Below, one piece after another: positions 607 to 53,111 of a DNA stretch of 64,000 nt. The DNA is from Nocardioides marmorisolisilvae (GTDB lineage Bacteria > Actinomycetota > Actinomycetes > Propionibacteriales > Nocardioidaceae), in the NCBI RefSeq assembly GCF_003725775.1, contig NZ_RJSG01000002.1, positions 558,001 through 622,000 on the forward strand. The letters run 5' to 3'. A model generated the notes under the pieces. It was not told where the DNA came from and did no database searches. It saw nothing but the letters and a program-made list of their open reading frames with translations. The position numbers and the translations under genes were made by a program. Within the stretch, counting starts at the first letter, position 1, and each line of letters begins with the position of its first letter.

Positions 607-2219
607 CCGCGATCGAGCTGCGCGACGTCTCGGTGACCTACGCCGACGCTGTCGAGCCGGTGCTGCGCGAGGTGGACCTGTCGATCTCCGAGGGAGAGCT
701 CGTGCTGGTCGTGGGCCGCACCGGCTCGGGCAAGAGCACCCTGCTCGGCCTGCTCAACGGACTGGTCCCGTACTCGACCGGCGGAACCGTCACCGGCACC
801 GTCACCGTCCACGGTCGCGAGACCAGCGCGCACCGGCCGCGCGACCTGGCCGACCTCGTCGGGGTCGTCGGCCAGGACCCGCTGGCCGGGTTCGTCACCG
901 ACACGGTCGAGGAGGAGCTCGCCTACGGGATGGAGCAGCTCGGCCTGCCGCCCGAGGTGATGCGCAAGCGGGTCGAGGAGACGCTCGACCTTCTCGGCAT
1001 CGCCGAGCTCCGCGACGCCCCGCTGGCCGACCTGTCCGGCGGCCAGCAGCAGCGGGTCGCGATCGGCGCCGTGCTGACCGCGCACCCGAAGGTGCTGGTG
1101 CTCGACGAGCCGACCTCGGCCCTGGACCCGACCGGCGCCGAGGAGGTGCTGGCCGCGATCACCCGCCTGGTTCACGACCTCGGCATCACCGTGGTGGTCG
1201 CCGAGCACCGCGTCGAGCGGGTCCTCGCCTACGCCGACCGCGTCGTGCACGTCGTCGACGGAGCCGTCGAGTCGGGAGAGCCCGCTGCGGTGATGCGCAC
1301 CGCGACGGTGGCGCCACCGGTCGTCGAGCTCGGCCGCTGGGCCGACTGGTCGCCGCTGCCGTTGTCGGTGCGGGACGCCCGGCGGTTGGCGGGGGACCTC
1401 CAGTCCTCGGTGGTTGAGGTGCAGGCGCCCCAGCGCCTGCCTCGAAACCCGATCGTTCTGTCCGCTCGCTCCGTCTCGGTCCGGCACGGTGACCTGGTCG
1501 CCGTGCGAGAGGTCGACCTGGACCTGTACGCCGGCGAGGTGGTGGCGCTGATGGGCCGCAACGGTGCCGGCAAGTCCAGCCTGCTCTGGGCGCTGCAGGG
1601 CTCGGGCCGACGCTCGGGCGGCTCGGTGACCCTCGGTGGTGGCGACGACGCTGTGGACCCTGGCGACCTCGCGCCGGCGGTGCGCCGTACCCGGGTCGGG
1701 CTGGTGCCTCAGACCCCGACCGACCTGCTCTACCTGTCGACCGTGGGGGCCGAGTGCGCCCAGGCCGACACGGAGACCCGGTCCGCTCCCGGAACCTGCC
1801 GCGAGCTGCTGGACCGGATCCTGCCCGACATCGATCCGGCCACCCATCCGCGCGACCTGTCCGAGGGACAGCGCCTCGGACTGGTGCTCGCGGTGCAGCT
1901 CACCGCGCGCCCGGACGTGCTGATGCTCGACGAGCCGACCCGCGGTCTGGACTACCAGGGCAAGGCAGCGCTCGCCGAGGTGCTCCGCGGGCTCGCGGAC
2001 GACGGCCACGCGGTGCTGCTGTCGACCCACGACGTCGAGTTCACCGCGATCGTCGCCGACCGGGTGGTCGTGATGGCGGGCGGCGAGATCGTCGCCGACG
2101 GTCCGACCCGTGACGTCGTGACGTCGAGCCCCGCGTTCGCGCCGCAGATCAGCAAGGTGCTCGGCGGCGGTCTGCTCGCGATGGACGACGTGGTTCGCGC
2201 CTTCGGAGAACGCCGATGA
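603..2219 (+). CDS. ECF transporter ATPase, two ABC domains fused in one chain (EcfA-EcfA')
   Basis: This 538-residue protein energises an ECF uptake transporter. The ATG at 603 is chosen because it overlaps the upstream stop and directly precedes the first ABC domain; the open frame itself extends further upstream. Domain 1 has Walker A GRTGSGKST (residues 38-46) and signature LSGGQQQR (near 144). Domain 2 has GRNGAGKSS (near 318), a divergent signature LSEGQ (near 419) and Walker B LMLDEP (near 440). The linker between the domains (about residues 270-283) is encoded by a copy of the window's long palindromic repeat (1412-1449). The 3' end overlaps the S-component start by four bases. The two-domain fusion is common in actinobacterial ECF systems. 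Confidence 0.93.
   Translation: MTAIELRDVSVTYADAVEPVLREVDLSISEGELVLVVGRTGSGKSTLLGLLNGLVPYSTGGTVTGTVTVHGRETSAHRPRDLADLVGVVGQDPLAGFVTDTVEEELAYGMEQLGLPPEVMRKRVEETLDLLGIAELRDAPLADLSGGQQQRVAIGAVLTAHPKVLVLDEPTSALDPTGAEEVLAAITRLVHDLGITVVVAEHRVERVLAYADRVVHVVDGAVESGEPAAVMRTATVAPPVVELGRWADWSPLPLSVRDARRLAGDLQSSVVEVQAPQRLPRNPIVLSARSVSVRHGDLVAVREVDLDLYAGEVVALMGRNGAGKSSLLWALQGSGRRSGGSVTLGGGDDAVDPGDLAPAVRRTRVGLVPQTPTDLLYLSTVGAECAQADTETRSAPGTCRELLDRILPDIDPATHPRDLSEGQRLGLVLAVQLTARPDVLMLDEPTRGLDYQGKAALAEVLRGLADDGHAVLLSTHDVEFTAIVADRVVVMAGGEIVADGPTRDVVTSSPAFAPQISKVLGGGLLAMDDVVRAFGERR
1412..1449 (+). repeat. Long-form palindromic repeat inside the EcfA linker
   Basis: The 38 bp start with GGTTGAG and end with CGAAACC, the ends shared by all copies of the family in this window. 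The interior forms a hairpin: GAGG-t-GCAGGCGC pairs with GCGCCTGC-CTC around a short loop. It is read in frame as VVEVQAPQRLPRNP in the linker between the two ATPase domains. Confidence 0.75.
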
Positions 2220-3001
2220 GCACCGTCGTCCCTGCGATCGCCCTCCGCCCGCGCTCCACGATCGCCATCGCCCTGGCCGTGGTCGCCGGCCTGATCGCCT
2301 TCGCCTGGCCGCTGCTGGTCACCCCGGGGTCCTCACTGTCGGGCAACGAGGCCGCGCCACTGATCCTCGGCTCGCTGCTGCCGGTCGTGCTGGCCGTGGT
2401 GCTCTTCGAGATCAGCGAGGGCGGCCTGGACCCGAAGGCGGTCGCGATGCTCGGGGTGCTCTCGGCGATCGGCGCGGCGATCCGCCCGCTGGGCGCCGGG
2501 ACTGCCGGCATCGAGACCGTGTTCTTCCTGCTGATCCTGGGAGGGCGTGTCTTCGGGGCCGGCTTCGGGTTCGTGCTCGGCGCGACCACGCTGTTCGGCT
2601 CGGCGCTCTTCACCGGCGGCGTCGGGCCCTGGTTGCCGTACCAGATGCTCGGCGCCGCGATCGTCGGGCTGTTCGCCGGGCTGCTGCCGCCGCTCACCGG
2701 TCGGTGGGAGCTGGCGATGCTGACCGTCTACGGAGCGATCTCGGGAGTCGCCTACGGCGTGCTGCAGAACCTGTCGTTCTGGCCGTTCGGCCTGGGGGAA
2801 CGGACCTCGCTCAGCTTCATCGCCGGTGCCCCGATCACCGAGAACCTGCACCGGTTCTTCGTGTTCTCGTTCTCGACCTCGCTCGGCTGGGACCTGGTCC
2901 GCGGGCTGACCAACGTGGTGCTGATCCTGGTCACCGGGCCGGCGATCCTGGCCACCCTGCGGCGCGCGGCCCGCAAGGCGCACTTCACCCGTGCTGGTTG
3001 A
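2216..3001 (+). CDS. ECF transporter substrate-binding (S) component
   Basis: This 261-residue, almost wholly hydrophobic protein with about six membrane segments ends a T-A-S gene order, which identifies it as the substrate-specificity subunit. Its sequence (for example GIETVFFLLILGGRVFGAGF and a conserved ITENLHRF segment) resembles S components that actinobacterial genomes carry beside a fused A-A ATPase. Cobalamin or a related cofactor is a possible substrate, but I cannot assign it. The start overlaps the ATPase stop by four bases. The stop TGA (2999-3001) lies inside the first of three tandem GGTTGAGCC repeats, so the repeat sets the C-terminus (RAG). Confidence 0.85.
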   Translation: MSTVVPAIALRPRSTIAIALAVVAGLIAFAWPLLVTPGSSLSGNEAAPLILGSLLPVVLAVVLFEISEGGLDPKAVAMLGVLSAIGAAIRPLGAGTAGIETVFFLLILGGRVFGAGFGFVLGATTLFGSALFTGGVGPWLPYQMLGAAIVGLFAGLLPPLTGRWELAMLTVYGAISGVAYGVLQNLSFWPFGLGERTSLSFIAGAPITENLHRFFVFSFSTSLGWDLVRGLTNVVLILVTGPAILATLRRAARKAHFTRAG

Positions 3002-3080
3002 GCCTGTCGAAACCTCCTTGCCCGTGCTGGTTGAGCCTGTCGAAACCTCCTTACCCGTGCTGGTTGAGCCTGTCGAAACC
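2991..3080 (+). repeat. Three tandem copies of the GGTTGAGCCTGTCGAAACC repeat, 33 bp period
   Basis: Copies start at 2991, 3024 and 3057. Each reads GTGCTGGTTGAGCC followed by TGTCGAAACC, with a 9 bp spacer (TCCTTGCCC, TCCTTACCC). The array fills the gap between the stop of the S component (2999-3001, inside copy 1) and the stop of the convergent DUF1697 gene (3083). It lies where a terminator would be expected, but the repeat forms only a weak imperfect hairpin. Confidence 0.95.
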
Positions 3081-3082
3081 CC

Positions 3083-3613
3083 TCAGCACCAGCGATCCAC
3101 GATCTCCGTCAGCACCTTGAGGCTGCGGTTCGTGGCGGGTCCGACTGCCTTCTCCAGCTTGGGGTTCGAGAGCTTGGCCTGCCCGTAGGGGATGTCGTAG
3201 AGCAGGTGCACCGCCCTGCCGTGGACCACCACGGTCTCGCCCGGAAGGCTCAGCGCGGCACCTGCCGCCGCCTGCGCCGCGGTGGCCGGCTGCTGGAGCA
3301 GGCTCACGTAGTGCGCGTACTCCGGCTTCTTCTCCGGGACCTCGGATGCCTCCTCGACCAGGGTGCGCAGCTCGGCCGGGGTGAACACCATGGTGGGCAC
3401 CTCGAATCCGCGGTCGGCGAGGAACAGCGCCTCGAGCTCGTCCTGGACCTTGGCCCGCGAGCGCAGCGGCGTCGTGATCCGGACGTTGCCGGTCTGGATG
3501 TAGGTGTCCACGTCGTCGTACCCGGCGCCGGTCAGTGCGGCGCGGAGGTCGGCGGTCTTGTACTGCCGTTTCCCGATGTTCACCGCGCGCAGGAAACCGA
3601 TGTGGGTGGGCAT
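3083..3613 (-). CDS. DUF1697 family protein
   Basis: This 176-residue cytosolic protein matches DUF1697 in length and pattern: the N-terminal HIGFLRAVNIG block, TGNVRI near residue 43, and the C-terminal ATNRSLKVLTEI block. The function of the family is unknown. The start at 3613 is supported by a TAGCCT -10 box (3620-3625 on the minus strand) six bases upstream, so the mRNA is probably leaderless. It converges on the ECF operon with the tandem repeats between them. Confidence 0.85.
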   Translation of the reverse strand: MPTHIGFLRAVNIGKRQYKTADLRAALTGAGYDDVDTYIQTGNVRITTPLRSRAKVQDELEALFLADRGFEVPTMVFTPAELRTLVEEASEVPEKKPEYAHYVSLLQQPATAAQAAAGAALSLPGETVVVHGRAVHLLYDIPYGQAKLSNPKLEKAVGPATNRSLKVLTEIVDRWC

Positions 3614-3619
3614 GTGCTG

Positions 3620-3625
3620 AGGCTA
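3620..3625 (-). promoter_or_regulatory. -10 box TAGCCT for the DUF1697 gene
   Basis: TAGCCT reads on the minus strand six bases before the ATG at 3613. This is the TANNNT-plus-6 spacing seen at many starts in this window and implies a leaderless transcript. Confidence 0.5.
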
Positions 3626-3651
3626 GCCGCGCCATCTGACAAGGTGGCGCC

Positions 3652-4005
3652 ATGGCGACCAAGGAAGAGATCCACGCGCTGATCGAGAGCTACGTCGCGG
3701 CCGTGGGCCGTCAGGACCTGGAGGGGACGCTGGCGGTGTTCGCCGACGACGCCTACCAGGAGGACCCGATCGGCACCCCGCCGAACGTCGGAATCGACGC
3801 CGTGCGCGGGTTCTTCGAGAAGTCCTTCGGGATGCCGTTCAGCACCGAGCTGACCGGTCCGGTCCTGGTCGCCGGCGACTTCGCGTCGTTCCACTTCACC
3901 ATCACCGTCCCGCTGGGCGAGGAGAACATGGTGGTGCGGGTGATCGACACGATCCGGGTCGACGGCGAGGGACGCATCGCCGAGCTCCGCGCCGTCGTCG
4001 ACTGA
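3652..4005 (+). CDS. NTF2-like (SnoaL/ketosteroid-isomerase fold) protein
   Basis: The 117-residue protein has the length and layout of the NTF2-like superfamily: an N-terminal helix ([28 protein letters not shown]), an EDPIGT turn, then beta strands ending in [22 protein letters not shown]. Members include steroid delta-isomerases, polyketide cyclases and many proteins without known activity, so no substrate is proposed. It lies 13 bases before clpS but has its own apparent start, and clpS has its own -10 box. Confidence 0.75.
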
Positions 4006-4006
4006 C

Positions 4007-4012
4007 TACGCT
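4007..4012 (+). promoter_or_regulatory. -10 box TACGCT for clpS (leaderless)
   Basis: TACGCT lies six bases before the clpS ATG at 4019, with no Shine-Dalgarno sequence between them. Confidence 0.5.
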
Positions 4013-4018
4013 GGTCCC

Positions 4019-4318
4019 ATGTCAGCTCCCAGCCCGATCGAGCTCGACGAACCGGTCACCGACGACCTCACCCTGCTGGCGACTCCCTGGGTCACCATCG
4101 TGTGGAACGACCCGGTGAACCTGATGTCGTACGTGACCTTCGTCTTCACGACGTACTTCAAGTACTCGAAGAAGAAGGCCGAGAAGCTGATGCTCGAGGT
4201 GCACCACGACGGCCGCTCGGTGGTCTCCACCGGCAGCCGCGAGGAGATGGAGCGCGACGTGCAGGCGATGCACGAGTACGGGCTGTGGGCGACGATGCAG
4301 AAGGCTGACACCCCGTGA
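4019..4318 (+). CDS. clpS: ATP-dependent Clp protease adaptor ClpS
   Basis: ClpS brings N-degron substrates (bulky hydrophobic N-terminal residues) to the ClpC/ClpP protease. The 99-residue protein shows the family core: [20 protein letters not shown] near residues 24-43, where the N and D line the N-degron pocket, then [19 protein letters not shown] and a final EYGLWATM block. The stop overlaps the GTG of the DUF2017 gene. The same order (Rv1331, Rv1332) is found in mycobacteria, which supports the call. It appears to be transcribed without a leader from TACGCT at 4007. Confidence 0.95.
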
Positions 4319-4890
4319 GCGGCTTCACGCGCGTCAAGAAGACCGGTGTCTGCGCGGCGACCTTCAGCGCGTTCGAGGCGGACCTGCTGCGCTCGCTGGC
4401 CGGCCAGCTGATCGAGCTGCTGCGCAACGAGGTCGCCGCCCCGGAGACCCTCGACCCGCTGGAGCAGCTGCTGGACTTCTCCGGGCCGACGTTGGTGCCC
4501 GAGGACCCGGTGCTGGCACGGCTCTTCCCGACGGCCTACCCCGAGGACGCCGAGGCCGCCGCCGAGTTCCGCCGCTACACCGAGTCGGACCTGCGCAACG
4601 GCAAGGCCGCCGGCGCCGCCACCATCATCGACACCCTCGAGGAGGCGGGCCTCGACGAGCAGCCCGAGGACGGCGTCTTCATCGACGTCGAGCTCGGGCC
4701 GCAGGCCGCCGTCACCTGGATGCGCTCGTTCACCGACATGCGGCTGGCGATCGCGACCCGGCTCGGCATCGAGGAGGGGGACGAGGAGCGCTGGTACGCG
4801 CTGCCGGATGACGACCCCGAGGGACAGGTGCACGACATCTACGAGTGGGTCGGCTACCTCCAGGAGACGCTCGTCCACGCTGCCTCCTGA
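4315..4890 (+). CDS. DUF2017 family protein, partner of ClpS in gene order
   Basis: The 191-residue acidic cytosolic protein matches the actinobacterial DUF2017 family (Rv1332-like), which almost always follows clpS. The start is the GTG at 4315, overlapping the clpS stop by four bases, so translation is probably coupled. The sequence has an [12 protein letters not shown] helix near the N-terminus, an acidic middle and a [27 protein letters not shown] tail segment. No catalytic motif is visible. The tight coupling suggests a role linked to Clp proteolysis, which is inference only. Confidence 0.88.
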
Positions 4891-4993
4891 AGCGTTCACC
4901 GCAGGTTTCCCCGGCCACCGGTTATCCGGGACGCCGGCTGGGTATGAGAGCCACGGCTGATCGGAGCCGTTCCCCACTCTCTCGGAGGTCTCG

Positions 4994-5878
4994 TTGTTCG
5001 CTCGAGTCCGGATCGCCCAGGCGATCACACGCAATTCCCGACGTACGCTCACCGTGCTGGCGCTCGCCGGCGCCGCCCTCGGGCTGACCCTGACCGGGTC
5101 CGCCGTCGCGGGAGGCCACGTCGCGGTGCCCGCCCCGCCGGCCAGTCCCACCAGCGCGTCGCAGATCCAGAACATCGACCAGGTGAAGACCGCCATCAAG
5201 GGCTACTACGGCGACACCACCACCGCCCAGGTCGACCCGGTCGACAACAGCATCGACGGCGGCGACAAGGCGCTGCACACCTTCTCCTCGACCAGTGCGT
5301 ACGTGAAGGAGATGGCGGGCATCGAGGCGCACGCCCAGGCCTACCTCGAGGACCCGTACCGCGGTCACCACCACCATCACCACGCGCACGGCCAGAAGGC
5401 GGTGCTGTTCGACGTCGACGACACCACGCTGAACACCTACAGCTACGAGATCTACAGCAACTTCGTCTACAACCCCACGACGAACGCTGCCTTCGTCAAC
5501 GCGGGTGTGTTCCCAGCGGTGCCGGGGATGCCGGCGCTGGTCAGCTGGGCCCAGGACCACGGCTACACCGTGTTCTTCCTGACCGGTCGCCCCGAGTCCC
5601 AGCGCGCCGGGACCCAGGCCAACCTGCAGAGCGTCGGGTACCCGGCCGTCCCGAACGCGCAGCTGTACCTGAAGGACCTCAGTGCGCCCTGGCTCTCCAG
5701 CTGTGCGACCTCGACGCCGGTGTGCACCACGGTCCAGTACAAGTCGCTGACCCGGCAGCACATCGAGTCGATGGGCTACGACATCGTCGCCAACTTCGGT
5801 GACCAGTACAGCGACCTGACCGGCGGATTCGCCGACAAGACGTTCAAGGTCCCGAACCCGATGTACTTCCTGCCCTGA
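4994..5878 (+). CDS. Secreted HAD-family acid phosphatase
   Basis: The start is the TTG at 4994, five bases after GGAGG (4984-4988). An N-terminal signal sequence (basic RNSRR, then hydrophobic residues 19-36) indicates export. The HAD motif LFDVDDTTLNTY gives nucleophile D140 and acid D142; motif II is FFLTGRPESQR, and motif IV lies in VANFGDQYSDLTGG. This matches the plant-type/class-B acid phosphatase family (about 295 residues). Residues 125-130 are a run of six histidines, with another at 132, just before the first catalytic strand; this could bind divalent metal. It is monocistronic and followed by a hairpin at 5888-5936. Confidence 0.88.
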   Translation: MFARVRIAQAITRNSRRTLTVLALAGAALGLTLTGSAVAGGHVAVPAPPASPTSASQIQNIDQVKTAIKGYYGDTTTAQVDPVDNSIDGGDKALHTFSSTSAYVKEMAGIEAHAQAYLEDPYRGHHHHHHAHGQKAVLFDVDDTTLNTYSYEIYSNFVYNPTTNAAFVNAGVFPAVPGMPALVSWAQDHGYTVFFLTGRPESQRAGTQANLQSVGYPAVPNAQLYLKDLSAPWLSSCATSTPVCTTVQYKSLTRQHIESMGYDIVANFGDQYSDLTGGFADKTFKVPNPMYFLP

Positions 5879-5887
5879 CACCCCCAC

Positions 5888-5936
5888 GGCAGCGCCGTCC
5901 GGAGCGTGGGCCTCGTGCCTCCCGGACGGCGCTGTC
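5888..5936 (+). terminator. Hairpin terminator after the acid phosphatase gene
   Basis: GGCAGCGCCGTCCGG (5888-5902) pairs with CCGGACGGCGCTGTC (5922-5936), 15 bp with one G-T pair and a 19-base loop. There is no U tract, as is usual in high-GC actinobacteria. Confidence 0.7.
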
Positions 5937-5939
5937 GCC

Positions 5940-5945
5940 TACGCT
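5940..5945 (+). promoter_or_regulatory. -10 box TACGCT for the mec-cysO-cysM operon (leaderless)
   Basis: TACGCT lies seven bases before the GTG at 5953, directly downstream of the upstream terminator hairpin. Confidence 0.5.
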
Positions 5946-5952
5946 TGTCCAC

Positions 5953-6390: not shown

Positions 6391-6399
6391 AGGAGCGAC

Positions 6400-7969
<1,570 letters not shown>

Positions 7970-7977
<8 letters not shown>

Positions 7978-8371
7978 GAAGGCGGGCCGGGCGGCGACCA
8001 GCCGCGGTTTCGGCCGCGTCATCGTCTTCGTCTACGGCATCCTGGCGTTCGCCGCGAGCGGCCGGGCGACCTTCGAGCTGACCACCAAGTTCAGCGACGC
8101 GCCGTTCCCGTACTCGCTCTCGATCCTGGCCGCCGTGATCTACGTCGTCGCCACCTGGGCGCTGGCCACCGGGCGGCGCCGGATCGCGCTGGCGACCGTC
8201 TCCTTCGAGCTGCTCGGGGTGCTGGCGGTGGGCCTGAGCAGCCTGCTCGCCACCGACAAGTTCCCCGAGGCCAGCGTCTGGTCGGACTTCGGAGCCGGCT
8301 ACGGCTGGGTGCCGCTGGTGCTGCCGATGGTCGGCCTGTGGTGGCTCTACCGGACCCGCCGCGTCGGTTGA
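7970..8371 (+). CDS. Small four-helix integral membrane protein
   Basis: The 133-residue protein has four hydrophobic stretches (about residues 16-34, 48-66, 74-93, 106-127) and a basic C-terminus. It resembles short actinobacterial integral membrane proteins annotated only by topology. The start overlaps the preceding gene. The last codons GTC GGT TGA lie in the long palindromic repeat at 8366-8400, so the repeat supplies the stop codon. Confidence 0.75.
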
Positions 8372-8400
8372 GGAGGTTGCGCTGCAACCGTCCCGAAACC
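8366..8400 (+). repeat. Long-form palindromic repeat supplying the stop of the preceding gene
   Basis: The 35 bp begin GGTTGAGG, contain the inner hairpin GGTTGCG-CT-GCAACC, and end CCCGAAACC. It has the same ends as the copy in EcfA. The TGA at 8369-8371 ends the upstream membrane-protein gene. Confidence 0.7.
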
Positions 8401-8439
8401 CGGTCGCCGGAATGAACCCGGGTCGCCGAGACTTGTCCT

Positions 8440-9699
8440 GTGGTGAGCAGTGACGTGACGGCCCAGCCGACCGATTCGACCGTGACGGTTGAGCCTGTCG
8501 AAACCCGTGCCGAAACCCGGGCGACCCACGTCGGCCTCGCCATCACCGCCCTCGCGCTCGGCGGATTCGCGATCGGCACCACGGAGTTCGTGACCATGGG
8601 TCTGCTCCCGGAGATCGCGGACGGCATCCACCGCTCGATCCCGACGACCGGCCACATCATCTCGGCCTACGCGCTCGGGGTCGTGGTGGGCGCACCGGTG
8701 ATCGTCTCGCTCGGCGCCCGCCTTCCGCGCCGCGGTCTGGCTGTCGCCCTGGTGCTGGCGCTCGGGATCGGCAACGCGGTCACCGCGGTGGCGCACGGGT
8801 ACAGCCAGGTGATGGTCGCCCGGTTCCTCGCCGGTCTCCCGCACGGCGCCTACTTCGGGGTCGCCTCGCTGATCGCGGCGTCGCTCGTTCCCGAGGACCG
8901 GCGCGGACGGGCCGTGAGCGGCGTGATGCTCGGCCTCTCGGTCGCGACGGTGGCCGGTGTCCCGGCGAGCACCTGGCTCGGCCAGGGTCTCGGCTGGCGC
9001 AGCGCCTACTGGGCCGTGCTCGGGATCACCGTGGTGACGATGGTCGGCATCCTGGCCTTCGTCCCGTCCTCGCCCGGCAACCGCAGCGCCACGATCCGCG
9101 GCGAGCTGACCGCGCTGACCAAGCCCCAGGTGCTGTTCGCCCTGGGCGCGGGGATGATCGGGTTCGGCGGCATCTTCGCGATGTACTCCTACGTCGCTCC
9201 GCTGGTCACCGATGTCGCGGACCTGTCGCGCTCGGCGATCCCGTGGTTCCTGCTCGCCTTCGGCATCGGCTCGGTCTTCGGGTCCTGGCTCGCCGGTCGA
9301 CTGGCGGACTGGGACAACGTCCGTGCGATCGTGGTCGGCTTCCTCGCCATCGTCGGGGTACTGCTCGCCGTCGTCGCGGTGGCGGGCTTCCCCCTCGCGC
9401 TGTGGCTGATGGTCCTCGGAGTCGGTGTGCTCGGCTCGGTGCTGGCGATCAACCTGCAGATCCGGCTGATGCACTCGGCGGGGGACGCCGAGATGCTCGG
9501 GGCGGCCCTGAACCACTCCGCGCTCAACATCGCGAACGGCCTGGGCGCCTGGCTCGGGGCCGTGGTGATCGCGGACGGCCACGGCTACCGCGCGCCGAGC
9601 CTGGTCGGGGCCGGGCTCGCAGGTCTGGGCCTGCTGGTGTTCCTGCTCGGCCTGACGCGGACCGCGAAAAGTGTGCCCCAGGGAACAAGCGGGACGTGA
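8440..9699 (+). CDS. MFS transporter of the DHA1 drug/sugar-efflux type
   Basis: The 419-residue protein has about 12 membrane helices. GTTEFVTMGLLPEIA in helix 1 and the GARLPRRGLAV loop between helices 2 and 3 are typical of the DHA1 group (AraJ, CmlR, PbuE-like exporters). The substrate is unknown. The GTG at 8440 is the first plausible start. The N-terminal cytosolic tail carries VEPVET, encoded by the short repeat at 8487-8505. The gene lies between the cysM group and murI, where mycobacteria have a rhomboid gene (Rv1337), so it is an addition to the conserved block. Confidence 0.85.
   Translation: MVSSDVTAQPTDSTVTVEPVETRAETRATHVGLAITALALGGFAIGTTEFVTMGLLPEIADGIHRSIPTTGHIISAYALGVVVGAPVIVSLGARLPRRGLAVALVLALGIGNAVTAVAHGYSQVMVARFLAGLPHGAYFGVASLIAASLVPEDRRGRAVSGVMLGLSVATVAGVPASTWLGQGLGWRSAYWAVLGITVVTMVGILAFVPSSPGNRSATIRGELTALTKPQVLFALGAGMIGFGGIFAMYSYVAPLVTDVADLSRSAIPWFLLAFGIGSVFGSWLAGRLADWDNVRAIVVGFLAIVGVLLAVVAVAGFPLALWLMVLGVGVLGSVLAINLQIRLMHSAGDAEMLGAALNHSALNIANGLGAWLGAVVIADGHGYRAPSLVGAGLAGLGLLVFLLGLTRTAKSVPQGTSGT
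8487..8505 (+). repeat. Short GGTTGAGCCTGTCGAAACC repeat inside the MFS gene
   Basis: An exact 19-base copy is read in frame as (G)TT GAG CCT GTC GAA ACC, giving VEPVET at about residues 17-22, before the first helix. A nearby CGAAACCCG (8511-8519) looks like a partial duplication of its end. Confidence 0.9.
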
Positions 9700-9743: not shown

Positions 9744-9749
9744 GTTCGC

Positions 9750-11352: not shown

Positions 11353-11371
11353 GGTTGAGCCAGTCGAAACC
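11353..11371 (+). repeat. Variant short repeat GGTTGAGCCAGTCGAAACC
   Basis: It differs from the consensus by one base (CCAGTC for CCTGTC). It sits in the 47-base gap between two convergent genes, in the same orientation as all other copies. Confidence 0.85.
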
Positions 11372-15154: not shown

Positions 15155-15883
15155 ATGACCCGAGCAGACGGCCGTGCCGACGACGAACTCCGCCCGATCA
15201 CGTTCACCCGGAACTGGCAGGACCACCCCGCCGGCTCGGTGCTGGTCGAGTTCGGCCGGACCAAGGTGCTCTGCGCCGCGTCCGCCTCGGTCGGCGTCCC
15301 GCGCTGGCGCAAGGGCTCGGGCCTGGGCTGGGTCACCGCCGAGTACGCGATGCTCCCGTCGGCCACGAACACCCGGTCGGACCGCGAGTCGGTCAAGGGC
15401 CGCATCGGTGGTCGCACCCACGAGATCTCGCGCCTGATCGGCCGCTCGCTGCGCGCTGCGATCGACTACAAGGCGCTGGGGGAGAACACCATCGTCCTCG
15501 ACTGCGACGTGCTCCAGGCCGACGGCGGTACCCGCACCGCGGCGATCACCGGCGCCTACGTCGCGCTTGCGGATGCCGTCGCCCACCTCAAGGCCGAGGG
15601 CGCGTTGGCCGGCGAGCCGCTGGTCTCTTCCGTCGCCGCCGTCTCGGTCGGGATCATCGACGGCGTTCCACGCCTCGACCTCCCCTACGAGGAGGACGTC
15701 CGCGCCGAGACCGACATGAACGTGGTGATGAACGGCGCGGGCGCCTTCATCGAGGTCCAGGGCACCGCCGAGGGCGCTCCGTTCTCGCGCACCGAGCTGG
15801 ACGCTCTGCTCGCGCTGGCCGAGAAGGGCTGCGCGGACCTCACCCGGCTCCAGCACGAAGCGTTGGCGACCCCCGTTGGTTGA
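15155..15883 (+). CDS. rph: Ribonuclease PH
   Basis: RNase PH trims tRNA 3' ends by phosphorolysis. The 242-residue protein shows RNase PH hallmarks: [16 protein letters not shown], the [19 protein letters not shown] block with conserved arginines, [20 protein letters not shown] and the C-terminal [11 protein letters not shown]-type segment (here [11 protein letters not shown]). The ATG at 15155 follows a TAGGGT -10 box by seven bases. The stop TGA (15881-15883) lies inside a short repeat, and the start of rdgB overlaps by eight bases. Confidence 0.96.
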
Positions 15884-16493
15884 GCCTGTCGAAACCCAGG
15901 TCTTCCTGGCGTCGCGCAACGCCAAGAAGCTCATCGAGATGGAGCGCATCCTCGGTGAGGCGCTGCCGGGCGTGAAGGTGCTCGGGCTCGACGACGTGAC
16001 CCCGTACGACGAGCCGGTCGAGGACCAGCCCGACTTCACCGGCAACGCGCTGCTCAAGGCACGGGTCGGCTTCGAGAAGACCGGCCTGCCGACGGTTGCC
16101 GACGACAGCGGGCTCTGCGTCGATGCGCTCAACGGGATGCCCGGCGTGCTCTCGGCTCGCTGGTCCGGTCTGCCCAAGAGCGACGACCGCAACAACCAGC
16201 TGCTGCTCGACCAGCTGCACGACGTCCCCGACGAGCGGCGCACGGCGTACTTCGTCAGCGTCGTCGCCTTCGTGCACGACGGCGGAGAGCTGGTCGTCGA
16301 GGGCCGGATGGACGGAAGCGTGATCCGCGAGGTCCGCGGCGCCGGCGGCTTCGGCTACGACGTGGTGTTCGTCGCGGACGACATGCCGGGCGTCACGACC
16401 GCCGAGCTGTCGAAGGACGACAAGGACGCCATCTCGCACCGCGGCAAGGCGCTGCGTGAACTGGCGCCCCAGGTCGCCGCAATCCTGGGCTGA
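15876..16493 (+). CDS. rdgB: RdgB/HAM1 non-canonical purine NTP pyrophosphatase
   Basis: This enzyme hydrolyses dITP and XTP to keep deaminated purines out of nucleic acids. The core begins [18 protein letters not shown] and has the metal/substrate block [23 protein letters not shown] and the HRGKALREL tail. The only plausible start is TTG at 15876, overlapping the rph stop, and it gives an N-terminus MVEPVETQ encoded by the short repeat at 15878-15896. There is no ribosome-binding site, so translation is probably coupled to rph. The gene order rph-rdgB matches mycobacteria. Length 205 residues. Confidence 0.93.
15878..15896 (+). repeat. Short repeat bridging the rph stop and the rdgB start
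   Basis: An exact copy of GGTTGAGCCTGTCGAAACC. In one frame GGT TGA ends rph; in another GTT GAG CCT GTC GAA ACC encodes residues 2-7 of RdgB. Confidence 0.92.
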
Positions 16494-44217: not shown

Positions 44218-44223
44218 CCCGCC

Positions 44224-44259
44224 ACTGTACGTCGGAGGGCACCGCTCGCTCGCTAGAGT
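44224..44259. promoter_or_regulatory. Divergent -10 boxes for the aminopeptidase (minus) and prsW (plus)
   Basis: Minus strand TACAGT at 44224-44229, six bases before the GTG at 44217. Plus strand TAGAGT at 44254-44259, seven bases before the ATG at 44267. Both genes are predicted leaderless. Confidence 0.5.
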
Positions 44260-44266
44260 TTCGGGC

Positions 44267-47112: not shown

Positions 47113-47120
47113 CCCGGCTT

Positions 47121-47138
47121 CCCCGTCGAGGCACGGGG
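47121..47138 (+). terminator. Weak hairpin between the two dynamin genes
   Basis: CCCCGT (47121-47126) pairs with ACGGGG (47133-47138) around a six-base loop. It could lower read-through between the two genes, but the stem is short. Confidence 0.3.
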
Positions 47139-47195
47139 GAGGACTCCTACTCGGTAGGCTGATGGTTCCATTCGTCAGCCGTGCAGAGGGAGCAG

Positions 47196-48851
47196 ATGTC
47201 GTCCTTGTTGGAGGGTGCCAAGCGACTGGTCACCCGGGGAACCGACATCGGGGTCCGCGTGAACGGTCTCGAGTCGGCGGTCCAGGCTGCCCGCGGCCGG
47301 CTCGACGACGCGCTGCTCGATCCCGCTGACGAGATCGTCTCCAAGGCCGCCGAACGGCTGCGCCTCTCGGCCGACCACACGGTCGTCGCTCTGGGCGGTG
47401 CCACCGGCTCCGGCAAGTCCTCGACGTTCAACGCCCTCGTCGGCCTCGAGCTGGCCTCGGTCAGCGTGCGCCGGCCGACCACCTCCTGGGCCACCGCCTG
47501 CACCTGGGGCGTCCAGGGTGCCAACGAGCTGCTGGAGTGGCTGGGCATCCCGCCGCGCCACCAGATCGTGCGGGACTCGATGCTCGACACCGGTCGTGAG
47601 CCCAAGGACCTCGACGGTCTGGTGCTGCTCGACATGCCCGACCACGACTCCACCGAGGTCGCCCATCACCTCGAGGTCGACCGGCTGGTGAAGCTCGCCG
47701 ACCTGCTGGTCTGGGTGCTGGACCCGCAGAAGTACGCCGACGCGGCGCTGCACGACCGTTTCCTCAAGCCGCTGGCGGCTCACAAGGACGTGATGCTGAT
47801 CGTCCTGAACCACATCGACGAGGTCGCCCCGGAACGACGTCCGGGCATGCTGGCCGACCTGCGTCGGCTGCTGGATGACGACGGCCTCGAGGGGATCACC
47901 CTGCTGGCGACCTCGGCGCGCGAGGGCATCGGCATCGACGAGCTGCGCCACGCGATCACCAGCCGGGTGGCCGACAAGGCTGCGACCCGGCACCGGCTGT
48001 CGACGAACCTGTCCGAGCTGGCCGCCTCGATCACCGCGGTCAGCGGCGATGCGCAGCCGCCGGCGTTCTCGGTGCGCGACCACGCGGAGATCCGGGCGGC
48101 CGTCGCCGACGCCGCGGGGGTGCCGGTGGTCGTCGAGGCCGTGGAGAAGGCGACCCTGATCCGCTCCCGTCGTGCCACCGGGTGGCCGCTGACCTCCTGG
48201 ATGTGGCGGTTCCGGCCGGACCCGCTGAAGAAGCTCCAGCTCGAGGTGCCGGGCGGGACCCGCGACCTGATCACCGCCGCGCGCTCCTCGATCCCGGACG
48301 CGAACGAGGTCCAGAACGCACGGGTCGACACCGCCGTGCGCGACTTCTCCGACCGGCTCTCGGCCACGCTCACCCGACCCTGGGCGACCGCAGTCCGCAA
48401 GGCGTCGGTCTCCCGGCTTCCCGAGCTCGAGGCCCGTCTGGACCGCGCGGTGGCCGCGACCGACCTCGGCGTCGCCAAGGTCCCGTTCTGGACCCGGGCC
48501 GTGCGGGCGCTCCAGTGGCTGCTGCTCCTCTCGGCTCTCGCCGGGGGAGCCTGGCTGGTGGCGCTGGCGGGCATCAGCTTCCTGAAGCTCCCCGACCTGC
48601 CCGACACCAAGGTCGGCTCCGTTCCGGTGCCGACGCTGCTGCTGCTCGGCGGGGTGGGGTTGGGCATCGTGCTCGCGGTGCTCTGCCGGGTGCTGGTGCA
48701 GCGCAGCGCGCGCCGCCGTGCCCAGCAGGCCGATGCCCGGCTTCGCAAGGCGGTCGACGAGGTCACCGAGGAGCTGGTGATCGAGCCGGTCGAGGCCGAG
48801 CTGCTGGCCTACCGGCTGACCACAGAAGGCTTGCGCGCCGCTCGCGGCTGA
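47196..48851 (+). CDS. Dynamin-like GTPase 2
   Basis: The ATG at 47196 has AGAGGGAG a few bases upstream, which favours it over a longer frame from 47181. The 551-residue protein has P-loop GGATGSGKSS (67-76), RPTTSWAT as switch 1, G3 LLDMPDHDST and G4 NHID. Two membrane helices lie at about 430-460 and 475-500, with a short exposed loop between. It differs from the upstream GTPase in length and G motifs, consistent with an asymmetric pair. No sporulation genes are nearby to define the process. Confidence 0.88.
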   Translation: MSSLLEGAKRLVTRGTDIGVRVNGLESAVQAARGRLDDALLDPADEIVSKAAERLRLSADHTVVALGGATGSGKSSTFNALVGLELASVSVRRPTTSWATACTWGVQGANELLEWLGIPPRHQIVRDSMLDTGREPKDLDGLVLLDMPDHDSTEVAHHLEVDRLVKLADLLVWVLDPQKYADAALHDRFLKPLAAHKDVMLIVLNHIDEVAPERRPGMLADLRRLLDDDGLEGITLLATSAREGIGIDELRHAITSRVADKAATRHRLSTNLSELAASITAVSGDAQPPAFSVRDHAEIRAAVADAAGVPVVVEAVEKATLIRSRRATGWPLTSWMWRFRPDPLKKLQLEVPGGTRDLITAARSSIPDANEVQNARVDTAVRDFSDRLSATLTRPWATAVRKASVSRLPELEARLDRAVAATDLGVAKVPFWTRAVRALQWLLLLSALAGGAWLVALAGISFLKLPDLPDTKVGSVPVPTLLLLGGVGLGIVLAVLCRVLVQRSARRRAQQADARLRKAVDEVTEELVIEPVEAELLAYRLTTEGLRAARG

Positions 48852-48969
48852 CCGTTCTGCACCCACAGGCCGTTTCGCCGGTCCGGTCCTGCACAGGCCT
48901 CTCGACGGTCCTCGCGACCGGCCCGTCCCCGCCGGGACGCTGCTCCCTCCACGACAAAGGAGGGAACAG

Positions 48970-49446
48970 ATGAACGAGTCCTACGTGACGCTGCAGGGCT
49001 GGGTGGGTAACGACGTCGACCAGCGGGAGGTCGGGGACACCGTGTGCAGCTCGTTCCGGCTGGGCTGCACGCCGCGCTACCTCAAGGGCGGGGAGTGGAC
49101 CAACGGCGAGACGTCCTGGTTCACCGTGAACTGCTGGCGGGCGCTGGGTCGCAACGTCGCCGACTCGGTGGCCAAGGGCGACCCGGTGGTCGTGCACGGC
49201 CGGGTCCGGGTCGACGTGTGGGAGCGCGAGGGTCAGCCGCCGTCGGTGTCCTGGATCGTCGATGCCATCTTCGTCGGCCACGACCTGAACCGCGGGACGG
49301 CCGCGTTCCTCAAGTCGGCGCGGTCCGGCGGCCCCGACCCGCTGGACGAGGCGGTCCGCGAGATGGTGCACGCGGTCGAGCCCGGCGGTCCGCGCCTGGA
49401 CGCCGACGGCAACGAGATCCTCGAGCGGGGTGAACCCGCTGCCTGA
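48970..49446 (+). CDS. Single-stranded DNA-binding protein paralog
   Basis: The ATG at 48970 has AAAGGAGGGA upstream. Residues 1-108 form an SSB OB fold (YVTLQGWVGNDVDQREVG, then NGETSWFTVNCWRALGRNVADSVAKGDPVVVHGRVRV). The C-terminus (NEILERGEPAA) lacks the acidic DDDIPF-type tip that recruits partner proteins. It is therefore a second SSB rather than the replicative one. The gene order SSB paralog-ettA matches Rv2478c-Rv2477c. Confidence 0.9.
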   Translation: MNESYVTLQGWVGNDVDQREVGDTVCSSFRLGCTPRYLKGGEWTNGETSWFTVNCWRALGRNVADSVAKGDPVVVHGRVRVDVWEREGQPPSVSWIVDAIFVGHDLNRGTAAFLKSARSGGPDPLDEAVREMVHAVEPGGPRLDADGNEILERGEPAA

Positions 49447-49464
49447 CCACGGCCGGAGTGACCG

Positions 49465-49470
49465 TAGGGT
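49465..49470 (+). promoter_or_regulatory. -10 box TAGGGT for ettA (leaderless)
   Basis: TAGGGT lies eight bases before the ATG at 49479. Confidence 0.45.
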
Positions 49471-49478
49471 TGGGGGCT

Positions 49479-51161
49479 ATGGGTGAGTACGTCTACACGC
49501 TGCGCAACGTCCGCAAGGCCCACGGCGACAAGGTGGTCCTCGACAACGTGACCTTGTCGTTCCTGCACGGCGCCAAGATCGGTGTCGTCGGCCCGAACGG
49601 GACCGGCAAGTCGACGCTGCTGAAGATCATGGCCGGGCTGGAGAAGGCCAACAACGGCGAGGCGCTGCTCGACCCGGGTGCCACGGTCGGGATGCTGCAG
49701 CAGGAGCCGCCGCTGACCGAGGGCCGGACGGTGCTGGAGAACGTCGAGGAGGCGGTCGCCGACACCAAGGCGAAGATGAAGCGCCTCGACGACCTGTACA
49801 TGGCCATGGGCGACCCGGACGCCGACCTCGACAAGCTCAACGAGGAGGCCGGCAACCTGCAGAGCGAGCTGGACGCCGCCAACGTGTGGGACCTCGACAG
49901 CCGTCTGGACCAGGCGATGGACGCGCTGCGCTGCCCGCCGCCGGACGCGCTCGTGGACCACCTCTCCGGTGGTGAGCGTCGCCGGGTCGCGCTGTGCAAG
50001 CTGCTGCTCCAGCAGCCCAGCCTGCTGTTGCTCGACGAGCCGACCAACCACCTCGACGCCGAGTCGGTGCAGTGGCTCGAGGGCCACCTCGCCAGCTACC
50101 CCGGCGCCGTCCTGGCCGTCACCCACGACCGGTACTTCCTCGACAACGTCGCGCAGTGGATCCTCGAGCTCGACCGCGGCAAGACGCACCCCTACGAGGG
50201 CAACTACTCCACCTACTTGGAGACCAAGAAGGAGCGTCTGGTCATCGAGGGCCAGAAGGACGCCAAGCGGGCGAAGATGCTGGAGAAGGAGCTGGAGTGG
50301 GTCCGCTCCAACCCGAAGGCCCGCCAGACCAAGAGCAAGTCGCGTCTGGCCCGGTACGAGGAGCTCGCGGCCGAGGCGGAGCGCGCCCGGAAGATCGACA
50401 CCTCCGAGATCAACATCCCGGCCGGCCCGCGCCTCGGTGACGTCGTGCTGGAGGCCAAGGGCCTGACCAAGGGTTTCGAGGGCCGCAACCTGTGGGAGGA
50501 CATCAGCTTCTCCCTGCCGCGCGCGGGCATCGTCGGCGTGATCGGCCCGAACGGCGTCGGCAAGACCACGCTGTTCCGGATGATCGTCGGCCAGGAGCAG
50601 CCGGACTCGGGCGCGCTCGACGTCGGCCAGACCGTGAAGATCTCCTACGTCGACCAGAGCCGCGGCGGCATCGACCCGAACAAGAACGTCTGGGAGGTCG
50701 TCTCCGACGGCCTGGACTTCATCAAGGTCGCCAACTTCGAGATGAACTCCCGCGCCTACGTCGCCTCCTTCGGCTTCAAGGGCCCGGACCAGCAGAAGAA
50801 GGCCGGCGTGCTCTCCGGTGGTGAGCGGAACCGGCTGAACCTCGCGCTGACCCTGAAGATGGGCGGCAACATGCTGCTCCTCGACGAGCCGACCAACGAC
50901 CTGGACGTCGAGACGCTGTCCTCCCTCGAGGACGCGCTGCTCGACTTCCCGGGGTGCGCGGTGATCACCTCGCACGACCGGTGGTTCCTGGACCGCACCG
51001 CGACCCACATCCTGGCGTGGGAGGGGACCGAGGACGAGCCGGGCAGCTGGTTCTGGTTCGAGGGCAACTTCGCCTCGTACGAGGAGAACAAGATCGAGCG
51101 CCTCGGCGTCGAGGCAGCCCGGCCGCACCGGGTCACGCACCGCCGCCTGACGCGCGACTGA
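49479..51161 (+). CDS. ettA: EttA, ABC-F translation factor
   Basis: EttA binds the ribosomal E site and gates early elongation by energy state. The 560-residue protein has two ABC domains (GPNGTGKST, LSGGERRRVAL; GPNGVGKTT, LSGGERNRLNL) and both Walker B LLLDEPTN motifs. The arm insertion lies at about residues 90-140, and the linker helix with KSKSRLARYEEL lies between the domains. Start at the MGEYVYT methionine (49479), eight bases after TAGGGT. The tail GVEAARPHRVTHRRLTRD overlaps the convergent membrane-protein gene by 29 bases. Confidence 0.96.
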   Translation: MGEYVYTLRNVRKAHGDKVVLDNVTLSFLHGAKIGVVGPNGTGKSTLLKIMAGLEKANNGEALLDPGATVGMLQQEPPLTEGRTVLENVEEAVADTKAKMKRLDDLYMAMGDPDADLDKLNEEAGNLQSELDAANVWDLDSRLDQAMDALRCPPPDALVDHLSGGERRRVALCKLLLQQPSLLLLDEPTNHLDAESVQWLEGHLASYPGAVLAVTHDRYFLDNVAQWILELDRGKTHPYEGNYSTYLETKKERLVIEGQKDAKRAKMLEKELEWVRSNPKARQTKSKSRLARYEELAAEAERARKIDTSEINIPAGPRLGDVVLEAKGLTKGFEGRNLWEDISFSLPRAGIVGVIGPNGVGKTTLFRMIVGQEQPDSGALDVGQTVKISYVDQSRGGIDPNKNVWEVVSDGLDFIKVANFEMNSRAYVASFGFKGPDQQKKAGVLSGGERNRLNLALTLKMGGNMLLLDEPTNDLDVETLSSLEDALLDFPGCAVITSHDRWFLDRTATHILAWEGTEDEPGSWFWFEGNFASYEENKIERLGVEAARPHRVTHRRLTRD

Positions 51162-51783
51162 GCACCCGGAGGACGGCAACGCCCGCGGCAGCCGTCACCA
51201 TCCAGGTCAGGGCGTCGAGCCAGAACTGACGGGCCAGGTTCGAGGTCAGGTGCACCACCGGCGCGGCCGTCATCGCGATCGCGAGACCGCGGTGGATGGT
51301 CCGGGTCCGGATCAGCGCGACCCCGATCAGCACGGCGCCGATGAGGTGCAGCGAGGCGGTGACGTTCACCGCGAGCACCACCGGGTTGGTGTACACGGCG
51401 TGGAAGGCCTTCTCGTCGCCCAGCTCGACCGCGACCGGATCGGTCATCATCGAGGTGGCCACGGCGATCCAGCCGACGATCGTGCAGCAGGCCGCTGCTG
51501 CGGCCACCCGAGGGCTGCCCGGGCGGAGTACCCGCAGGAACGCCAGTGCTGCCGGAACCGCGAGGACGCAGCCGAGGAGTCCGAAGACGTCCGCGAGCTG
51601 TGTGCGTCCGGTGTCAGCCGAGATCGAGCTGAAGACCGCGGCGGCCTTGGTCTCGCCGTACGCGGGGTAGAGGGCGAAGTAGGTCAGGATCAGCAGCGGG
51701 AAACCGACCAGCCCGAGGGCGCTCATGGTCAGGTTCGCGGACGCGTCGGTCCGGGTCGGTCGAGTCAGGGTCTGGGTAGTCAC
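51133..51783 (-). CDS. Six-helix membrane protein, DUF4386-like
   Basis: The GTG at 51783 has GAGGAGG seven bases upstream. The 216-residue product has about six membrane helices and layout features of DUF4386-type proteins (an N-terminal LVGFPLLILTYFAL helix, an extracellular loop with MMTDPVAVELGDEKAFHAVYTNP, and a C-terminal LARQFWLDALTW). No function is known. It lies on the same strand as marR, about 105 bases after its stop. The family match is tentative. Confidence 0.7.
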   Translation of the reverse strand: MTTQTLTRPTRTDASANLTMSALGLVGFPLLILTYFALYPAYGETKAAAVFSSISADTGRTQLADVFGLLGCVLAVPAALAFLRVLRPGSPRVAAAAACCTIVGWIAVATSMMTDPVAVELGDEKAFHAVYTNPVVLAVNVTASLHLIGAVLIGVALIRTRTIHRGLAIAMTAAPVVHLTSNLARQFWLDALTWMVTAAAGVAVLRVLSRASGGGA

Positions 51784-51890
51784 GGGAGCCTCCTCGTCGC
51801 AGGGTGCTCCCACGCTAGGAATCCCGGGCCCGCAGACGCATGGGGAGAACGCCTCATCATCGCCCGCAGGCGGGAGGCTGCCGGGGAGAG

Positions 51891-52379
51891 CTAGCGGATG
51901 TCCTCGAAGGTCGGGTTCTCGGCCACCAGCTGGTCGGAGACCGAGTTCATCACGCGTCCCAGCGCGGCGTAATCGGCCCGGTCCGCCAGGTCGACGAAGT
52001 GTGCCCGGACCCCGGAGACGTGGGTGTGGGCGGCTGCCTGGAGCAGCTCCCAGCCCTTGTCGGTCATGATCGCATCGACGCCGCGCTTGTCGTCGGTGGC
52101 GGCGATGCGGCGGATCAGGCCGTCCTTCTCCATCCGGCTCACGGTGTGGGTCACCCGGCTGCGCGAGTGCCGCATCGACTCCGCGATCTTCGCCATCCGC
52201 AGGGTCCGGTCGGGGGACTCCGAGAGCCGGACCAGGATCTCGTACTCGCCCAGGGAGATGTCGTGCTCCTGGCGCAGCTCGCGGTCGAGAGTGTCCATCA
52301 GCAGCGTGCTGCCCACGATGAACGCGCGCCAGGTCGCCTGCTGATCGGCGTCCAGCCAGCGGGTCTCGGTTGGGCTCAT
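51891..52379 (-). CDS. MarR-family transcriptional regulator
   Basis: The 162-residue protein has the winged-helix core: DISLGEYEILVRLSESPDRTLRMAKIAESMRHSRSRVTHTVSRMEKDGLIRR, then a wing (ATDDKRGVDAIMTDKGWELL) and terminal dimerisation helices. The ATG at 52379 follows TAGACT (52388-52393 on the minus strand) by eight bases and appears leaderless. Its likely operators are the TTGA/TCAA repeats between it and yceI; the same type of site lies in the pirin promoter. Confidence 0.93.
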   Translation of the reverse strand: MSPTETRWLDADQQATWRAFIVGSTLLMDTLDRELRQEHDISLGEYEILVRLSESPDRTLRMAKIAESMRHSRSRVTHTVSRMEKDGLIRRIAATDDKRGVDAIMTDKGWELLQAAAHTHVSGVRAHFVDLADRADYAALGRVMNSVSDQLVAENPTFEDIR

Positions 52380-52387
52380 GGGAGGGG

Positions 52388-52393
52388 AGTCTA
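52388..52393 (-). promoter_or_regulatory. -10 box TAGACT for marR (leaderless)
   Basis: TAGACT on the minus strand lies eight bases before the ATG at 52379. Confidence 0.45.
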
Positions 52394-52413
52394 GGGAATA
52401 GGGGCCGCCCAGA

Positions 52414-52472
52414 GATAGTTGACACTTCAACAAAGCGTGCTACGCTTGGAACAGATTTAGAATTCAACTATC
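52414..52472 (+). promoter_or_regulatory. yceI promoter with two MarR-type operators
   Basis: -35 TTGACA (52419-52424) and -10 TACGCT (52441-52446) are 16 bases apart. GTTGA-CACT-TCAAC (52418-52431) covers the -35, and a second half-palindrome (TTAGAATTCAA, 52457-52467) lies downstream of the -10. GATAGTTGA at 52414-52422 recurs inverted at 52464-52472. The marR gene is divergent, so autoregulation is likely. Confidence 0.65.
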
Positions 52473-52493
52473 AATCAGGAAGAGGCATCCGCC

Positions 52494-53039
52494 ATGACCA
52501 GCACCACGCAGACCCCCACCGAGCTTGTCGCCGGCACCTGGAGCATCGACCCCAGCCACTCCGAGGTCGGCTTCACCGTCCGCCACCTGATGACCAAGGT
52601 CCGCGGCCAGTTCGAGGCCTTCACCGGCACCGTCACCACCGGCGCGACCCTGGCCGAGACCAAGGCCGAGGCCACCATCGACCTCAACTCGGTCAACACC
52701 CGCGACGCCCAGCGCGACGGCCACCTGCGCAGCGGCGACTTCTTCGACGTCGAGAACCACGGCCCGATGACCTTCACCTCGACCTCGTTCGACGGCTCCA
52801 AGGCGGTCGGCGTGCTGACCATCAAGGGCATCGCGAAGGACGTCGAGCTGGAGGTCGAGTTCCTCGGCATCGAGAAGGACGCCTACGGCAACACCCGGAT
52901 CGGCTTCGAGGCCACCACCGAGATCAACCGCAAGGACTTCGGTGTCGACTTCGACATCCCGCTGGACGGCGGCAAGCTGCTCGTCGGCCACACCGTGAAC
53001 ATCACGCTGAGCATCCAGGCGGTGCTCGCCCAGGCGTGA
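52494..53039 (+). CDS. YceI-family lipocalin-like protein
   Basis: The 181-residue protein has the YceI pattern: WSIDPSHSEVGFTVRHLMTKVRGQF at the start, INLNSVNT-like IDLNSVNTRDAQRDGHLRSGDFFDVENHGPMTF, and TIKGIAKDVELEVEF with IGFEATTEINRKDFG at the end. These barrels bind isoprenoid or other amphipathic molecules. There is no signal peptide, so it acts in the cytosol, unlike periplasmic E. coli YceI. An AGGAAGAGG ribosome-binding site precedes the ATG, and the divergent MarR regulator probably controls it. Confidence 0.94.
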   Translation: MTSTTQTPTELVAGTWSIDPSHSEVGFTVRHLMTKVRGQFEAFTGTVTTGATLAETKAEATIDLNSVNTRDAQRDGHLRSGDFFDVENHGPMTFTSTSFDGSKAVGVLTIKGIAKDVELEVEFLGIEKDAYGNTRIGFEATTEINRKDFGVDFDIPLDGGKLLVGHTVNITLSIQAVLAQA

Positions 53040-53051
53040 CCTGTGGGAACG

Positions 53052-53085
53052 CGAAGGCCCCGGACCGAACGGTCCGGGGCCTTCG
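53052..53085. terminator. Perfect bidirectional terminator between yceI and the thiolase gene
   Basis: CGAAGGCCCCGGACC (53052-53066) pairs with GGTCCGGGGCCTTCG (53071-53085) around GAAC, a perfect 15-bp stem followed by TCTT on the plus strand. It lies between convergent genes. Confidence 0.9.
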
Positions 53086-53091
53086 TCTTGT

Positions 53092-53111
53092 GCTGGAGAG
53101 CCGGTCGAAAC
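53092..53111 (+). repeat. Degenerate copy of the GGTTGAGCC repeat
   Basis: CTGGAGAGCCGGTCGAAACC keeps the AGCC-GTCGAAACC part of the consensus but lacks GGTTG. It lies directly before the stop of the convergent thiolase gene, in the same orientation as the other copies. Confidence 0.5.

Follow-up and report, generated by a model that had tools for sequence, protein, structure and literature searches.

What is the short palindrome that recurs, always in the same direction, at the beginning of a 64-kb stretch of the Nocardioides marmorisolisilvae genome, and what has spread it? The stretch, hereafter the window, comprises bases 558001-622000 of contig C4 in a genome of 3.83 Mb and six contigs. 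The initial annotation of the window described a family with GGTTGAG...CGAAACC ends, read only on the + strand, and suggested that it was of the repetitive extragenic palindrome (REP) or miniature inverted-repeat transposable element (MITE) type, possibly tied to replication direction and perhaps accompanied by a REP-associated tyrosine transposase (RAYT). The family was confirmed. Eight copies, all +, are present in the first 16 kb and shuffled sequences give none; six are 19-bp short forms, of which one differs at a single base, and the middle of the other two, the long forms, is a larger hairpin. We consider it probable that the element is a RAYT-less, CGTC-like variant of the REPs, which forms a strand-specific hairpin and has been spread by an activity other than a Y1 transposase. 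The analysis demonstrated its abundance, its 5′ tag, its complementary arms that vary by lineage, its patchy copy number and the differences between species at the same gene junctions.

The core of the element, TGAGCYTGTCGAA, is found in about 149 copies genome-wide, 73 forward and 76 reverse, and no match was obtained with the reversed pattern. The pattern used in the initial annotation gave 73 forward and 74 reverse matches, a total of 147 that includes some nested matches counted twice, and its reversed control was also 0. At the scale of the genome an orientation bias is not supported. For a closer analysis, 90 sites in 56 stretches around listed sites were thinned to 79 clumps (same strand, less than 800 bp apart); being drawn from listed sites, the clumps include none on C5, C6 or most of C4 beyond 1.28 Mb. 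Forty-four of them read + and 35 read -. The origin was set by dnaA (C2:93744-94229, - strand) and the terminus was placed near 1.1 Mb of C4 from a faint GC skew alone, which makes the replichore test a weak one. With the clumps on C1 and C3 left out, 35/60 clumps on C2 and C4 agreed with the leading strand as estimated in this way (p=0.25), a runs test gave p=0.21, and 32/57 clumps followed the local gene direction (p=0.43), the genes being those of a codon-usage caller and not of an annotation. The longest same-strand run on C4, of 8 clumps, was matched in 17% of shuffles. Orientation by replication or by transcription is not supported by these counts. The one-way run in the window is local, and the tested clumps show no significant tie to the direction of genes or of replication.

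The 79 clumps share a common layout, a 5′ YGYT tag followed by GGT, the core and ACC. The 5′ flank was counted as part of the element because position -3 is G in 79/79 clumps, position -1 is T or C in 77/79 and position -4 is C or T in 68/79. The tags include TGCT (19 clumps), CGCT (15), CGGT (10), CGTT (9), CGTC (3) and TGTC (1), and the stem is followed by a common NNGTGA in 11/79 clumps, where 0.33 would be expected. The relaxed pattern GGTTNNGN5CNNAACC was found at 129 places genome-wide (reversed control, 0); 45 of the 50 such places listed carry GAG...CGA, and the fully complementary alternative was present in one. In the core, therefore, GA faces GA, and the two are not complementary. 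Opposed GA steps are odd for a double-strand dyad and fit a folded single strand; tandem GA steps in a Y-GA-R context are unusually stable in DNA. The GGTT, the GA/GA and the G-C make up seven positions flanking a 5-base middle, with no AT at the start of the stem. One of the two long forms, that at 1412, folds well in the energy model (z -4.4 and -3.7).

The element is not confined to this genus. A scan of species genomes with the 19-mer returned at least 117 stretches, assigned by record title to Actinomycetota, Spirochaetota, Bacteroidota, Chloroflexota and betaproteobacteria, plus one Clostridiales record, the genome of which has only 2 core copies. The core was present at 20 to 493 copies in 36/51 genomes examined, belonging to five phyla, with at most 2 matches to the reversed control; 49 of the 51 had been picked for holding the 19-mer, and the fraction is thus no estimate of prevalence. 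The arms vary and remain complementary. Among 62 non-GGT copies from other genomes, 4 were duplicates, and in the 58 unique copies without GGT/AACC arms the arm positions 1 to 3 pair in 50, 51 and 48 cases, compared with shuffled means of 28, 19 and 21 and maxima of 38, 30 and 32. One-sided changes in the four innermost outer pairs gave 14 G.T versus 1 A.C in other genera (p=0.001), an excess expected if the strand carrying TGAGC is the one that folds. The flanks have a consensus by group, TGtcA in Bacteroidota, CCGTTCG in betaproteobacteria and CGGT in Arthrobacter and its kin, and Treponema copies have GGTGGT...ACCAC stems. The repeat was found in only 11 stretches of a viral collection. The 19-mers, the 13-mer core on both strands and the VEPVET-type peptides encoded by some copies had no match in the open PubMed Central (PMC) papers searched.

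Copy number is patchy among close relatives. The 24 genomes of the genus hold between 0 and 149 core copies, with four or fewer in 14 of them, and more than 10 core copies were found in 4/296 sampled genomes of the phylum. Where the flanks of window sites could be paired with those of relatives, the relatives mostly had no copy or another hairpin type, and comparison of the sequences suggests a turnover of copies from species to species at shared gene junctions. At the rph-rdgB junction, which holds the 15878 copy in the window, six GGTTGAGGTGCGAGCGCAGCG-type units stand in tandem in the congener G314 (L219), and the versions in G307 and G300 have GAT/ATC arms; at the junction of the 11353 copy, G315 has a near-copy. 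A Leifsonia junction contains a 508-bp stretch rich in three hairpin types versus 94 other bases in a relative, the flanks being 93% and 82% identical. Different or composite palindromes were also noticed. At the 11353 junction, G307 (L191/L223) has a different, MITE-like palindrome of about 90 bp (GGTTGAACGGGCCCTATTTGTC...), and G299 (L234) has yet another inverted repeat, GGGTTTTGCCGGGCACCCGGCAAAAC, in two forms. In Leifsonia sp. Root4, which has 317 core copies, composite blocks resembling bacterial interspersed mosaic elements (L097:4700-5200) combine three hairpin types with common GGTYGAG...CGARACC ends, and pieces of these blocks recur at many positions across five Leifsonia genomes.

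With respect to genes, 39 of the 79 clumps are intergenic, 9 more have only 3′-end overlaps and 31 are within a called gene; 14 intergenic sites lie between convergent genes and 5 between divergent ones. Copies that lie within genes in the sense direction use a single frame in 22/23 cases, or 13/14 clumps (p=0.002). These 22 comprise 16 copies read as VEPVET, 3 as VELVET, 1 as VEFVET and 2 long forms; another frame of the repeat would stop. Separately, C1 13184-15091 (- strand; L009:1-1908) encodes the N-terminal 636 residues of a long acidic protein rich in Pro, Glu and Val. Copies of the hairpin repeat make up its many VEPVETPEP-like units, and Pfam gave no match for these 636 residues.

The initial annotation had suggested looking for a RAYT-type transposase. 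The Y1_Tnp domain was sought as PF01797 only, other HUH families not being searched, and it was found in 0/24 genomes of the genus, our genome included. A RAYT is therefore unlikely as the present mover. Among repeat-bearing genomes at large, the search of which left out L036, PF01797 was found in 17/49, and 15 of these are Bacteroidota, Chloroflexota or Spirochaetota. Classified by record titles, and with some matches fragmentary or interrupted by stops, the carriers of a Y1 gene were 7/7 Bacteroidota, 3/3 Chloroflexota, 1/1 betaproteobacterium, 5/10 Spirochaetota and 1/28 further Actinomycetota records, the 28 including G354, probably identical with the congener G306, as one of its contigs has its copies at matching positions. 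Of the 37 Y1 matches, 30 loci were examined, several of them truncated by the end of a contig; a single copy of a relaxed core is present within about 1.5 kb in 2 of these loci, and none has the core on both sides. No transposase was recognised among 28 genes between close copies, judged by their first 90 residues and with no family search run. In 117 loci, 291 open reading frames (ORFs) with 150 residues or more lie no farther than 1.2 kb from a copy, and no family among them is present in more than 3 loci.

In form, the element is a REP in the broad sense: a short imperfect palindrome that is present many times and for the most part lies outside genes or at gene ends. This part of the proposed REP/MITE assignment held, as judged from the imperfect palindrome, the complementary varying arms, the 5′ tag, the copy number and the many positions at gene ends. 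The closest known class is that of the CGTC-tagged REPs, described from Proteobacteria, Chlorobi, Bacteroidetes, Spirochaetes and Thermotogae (Di Nocera, De Gregorio and Rocco 2013, PMC3733652); the word Actinobacteria is absent from the text of that paper, other names for the group not being searched. According to that text, these REPs are short hairpins preceded by four unpaired 5′ bases (CGTC, or else TGTC or CCTC), with a stem of 8-9 bp that nearly always starts with AT, a loop of 4-5 and mostly 5 bases, and a short tail, mostly CCA; they have no dedicated transposase, and their mover was left open in 2013 (PMC3733652). Our element resembles them, as there described, in being a short hairpin with a 5′ tag, in its location at gene 3′ ends, convergent sites and within genes, in its 5-base middle and in having no associated transposase, as far as PF01797 tells. 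It differs in that CGTC or TGTC is the tag in only 4/79 clumps, CCA directly follows the stem in 0/79, and the stem lacks the AT start, but Bacteroidota copies of the repeat do show TGtc. Since the tag and the tail fail as far as the text defines them, we call the element CGTC-like and not a member of the family, a comparison made with the published description. Genus-mates of the Novosphingobium host of plasmid pNL2 are among the CGTC families in that description (PMC3733652), and pNL2 has one weak match in the 50 kb examined.

Other systems are more distant. The hairpin, 5′ tag, high copy number and position at gene ends are shared with the GTAG REPs and their paired forms (REPINs) that are served by RAYTs (TnpA-REP), but GTAG or GTGG is the tag in 0/79 clumps, and no repeat-flanked Y1 gene was found in the genus or in the loci of the other phyla. 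The atypical hairpins with a 5′ foot and high copy number that accompany class 3 TnpA-Y1 proteins are similar as described; the foot there is CnGA, however, and the structures flank the Y1 gene (Quentin et al. 2018, PMC6006769). Palindromic repeats in frame inside protein genes recall the Rickettsia palindromic elements (RPE), which have a different host and setting and are likened here by their description and not by sequence (PMC3733652).

The reading that we favor, a CGTC-like REP without a RAYT, can be put as a mechanism. The element would spread via a folded single-stranded DNA form, the folded strand would be recognized by the core plus the tag, and the spreading activity would be something other than a Y1 transposase; the element itself may be selfish for the most part, and genes may tolerate it at their 3′ ends and where the protein is flexible. 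Several observations weigh against this account. Neither a transposition event nor an enzyme was seen. The short form folds no better than shuffles in the energy model, as DNA or RNA (z about 0), the 8366 long form is unremarkable (z -0.9), and in our own genus the G.T and A.C changes number 2 to 2. Within genes, 14 clumps are sense and 17 antisense. Part of the constancy of the core from phylum to phylum follows from the sampling, since the 19-mer was the criterion for choosing loci and the core that for the remaining copies, and the near-identity of the copies likewise comes from sites chosen by pattern. Relatives are about 70-85% identical, so that the ends of insertions, and any target duplication as expected for a MITE, cannot be placed to the base; the 15878 junction appears rewritten and not cleanly interrupted; and local clusters could come from tandem duplication. 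In a bolder version of the same account, at least five phyla would share a conserved cellular activity, not of the Y1 kind, that reads one hairpin code (a CG-type tag, free complementary arms and the core with its opposed GA steps). This activity would copy the code around genomes and thereby give genes new stops, new starts and VEPVET-like peptides. We regard this version as doubtful.

The alternatives each explain part of the data. Recombination could do without a dedicated enzyme if exchanges between short homologies, by template switching and gene conversion, propagated quasi-palindromes and corrected them. The rewritten look of the 15878 junction, where relatives carry GTTGAG- or GATTGAG-like partial sites, and the common tandem and mosaic arrays are in line with this, but recombination alone does not account for a single core and tag being present across five phyla while the arms differ by lineage, and we think it rather unlikely. 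A classical REP/RAYT system, in which a Y1 (IS200/IS605-like) transposase mobilizes the hairpins as it does the GTAG REPs and has been lost here or acts from elsewhere, is also unlikely. The tag beside the hairpin foot has the topology of TnpA-REP substrates as described (PMC6006769), and Y1 genes are usual in the Bacteroidota, Chloroflexota and betaproteobacterial carriers and present in half of the Spirochaetota; against this stand the 0/24 genomes of the genus in which one was found, their presence in 1/28 Actinomycetota records and the 30 Y1 loci, none with the relaxed core on both sides. Selection could instead have multiplied functional RNA elements at mRNA 3′ ends, such as stabilizers, processing sites or factor-dependent terminators. 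The excess of convergent over divergent sites and the G.T wobbles tolerated on one strand in other genera point that way. The copies, however, are not aligned with transcription, a good number sit within genes in sense or antisense, the RNA fold of the short form is poor, no T run follows the copies (T in at most 25/79 at any of positions +1 to +8) and 14/24 genomes of the genus do with four copies or fewer, which makes this explanation quite improbable. The least probable, to the point that we give it hardly any weight, is an oriented chromosome motif for replication or segregation, akin to the FtsK orienting polar sequences (KOPS) or Chi. Eleven consecutive + matches at C4:555938-644851 would suit it, as would the congener G318, where the single contig, C1, has 33 core copies + versus 10 - (16 versus 7 clumps) and where the origin was not located, dnaA being found neither in the position 1 region nor in 39 other stretches examined. 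The leading-strand and runs tests and the low copy numbers in the genus argue against it, and no significant KOPS- or Chi-like replichore skew was seen in the 60 clumps on C2 and C4, with the terminus taken from the weak skew.

The individual copies in the window show how the element sits among genes. Exact GGTTGAGCCTGTCGAAACC was found at 2996, 3029, 3062, 8487 and 15878. Together with the copy at 11353, which has one change, these are the only matches with up to 3 mismatches (0.02 expected in shuffles), and all six are on the + strand. The initial annotation had placed the 2996, 3029 and 3062 copies one base too high, at 2997, 3030 and 3063. The long forms, at 1412-1449 and 8366-8400, have a shuffle expectation of 0.00. 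The first, GGTTGAG-(hairpin)-TCGAAACC (1412..1449, +), is in the linker of a two-domain ATP-binding cassette (ABC) ATPase gene, with the in-frame reading VEVQAPQRLPRN. A 33-bp tandem array of 2.8 units (2987..3080, +) contains the three exact 19-bp copies, the first of which gives, through its GGTTGAG end, the TGA stop of ORF 2216-3001. In the same way the second long form, GGTTGAGGAGGTTGCGCTGCAACCGTCCCGAAACC (8366..8400, +), gives the TGA stop of ORF 7970-8371, and the exact short form at the rph-rdgB junction (15878..15896, +) that of the RNase PH ORF (15155-15883); the first start of the RdgB/Ham1 ORF (15876-16493), a TTG at 15876-15878, overlaps the edge of this copy. Another exact short form (8487..8505, +) is in the 5′ coding part of a major facilitator superfamily (MFS) transporter gene (8440-9699), in the VEPVET frame, and the one-change copy (11353..11371, +) lies between convergent genes, 8 bp past the stop of a metallo-beta-lactamase-fold ORF.

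Farther along, a degenerate copy had been proposed near 53092. The site, at 53094..53112 (+), has three mismatches to GGTTGAG-N5-CGAAACC, a tolerance at which the window has 17 matches versus 5.1 expected, and taken alone it is not above chance. Directly before it, at 53050-53095, a GC-rich hairpin is followed by CTTCGTCTT, possibly an intrinsic terminator. The statement that no copy reads - is correct for exact GGTTGAG...CGAAACC copies in the window; one relaxed match, GGTTGCGGCCCTCGAAACC at 50472, is on the - strand. A search of the window with Rfam returned tRNAs only.

The copies that are read in frame show such repeats remodelling gene ends and linkers. With 24 genomes, 0 to 149 core copies and no Y1 found, the genus is a useful test bed for the mover of CGTC-type REPs, and the core shared across phyla provides a defined substrate for finding the enzyme.

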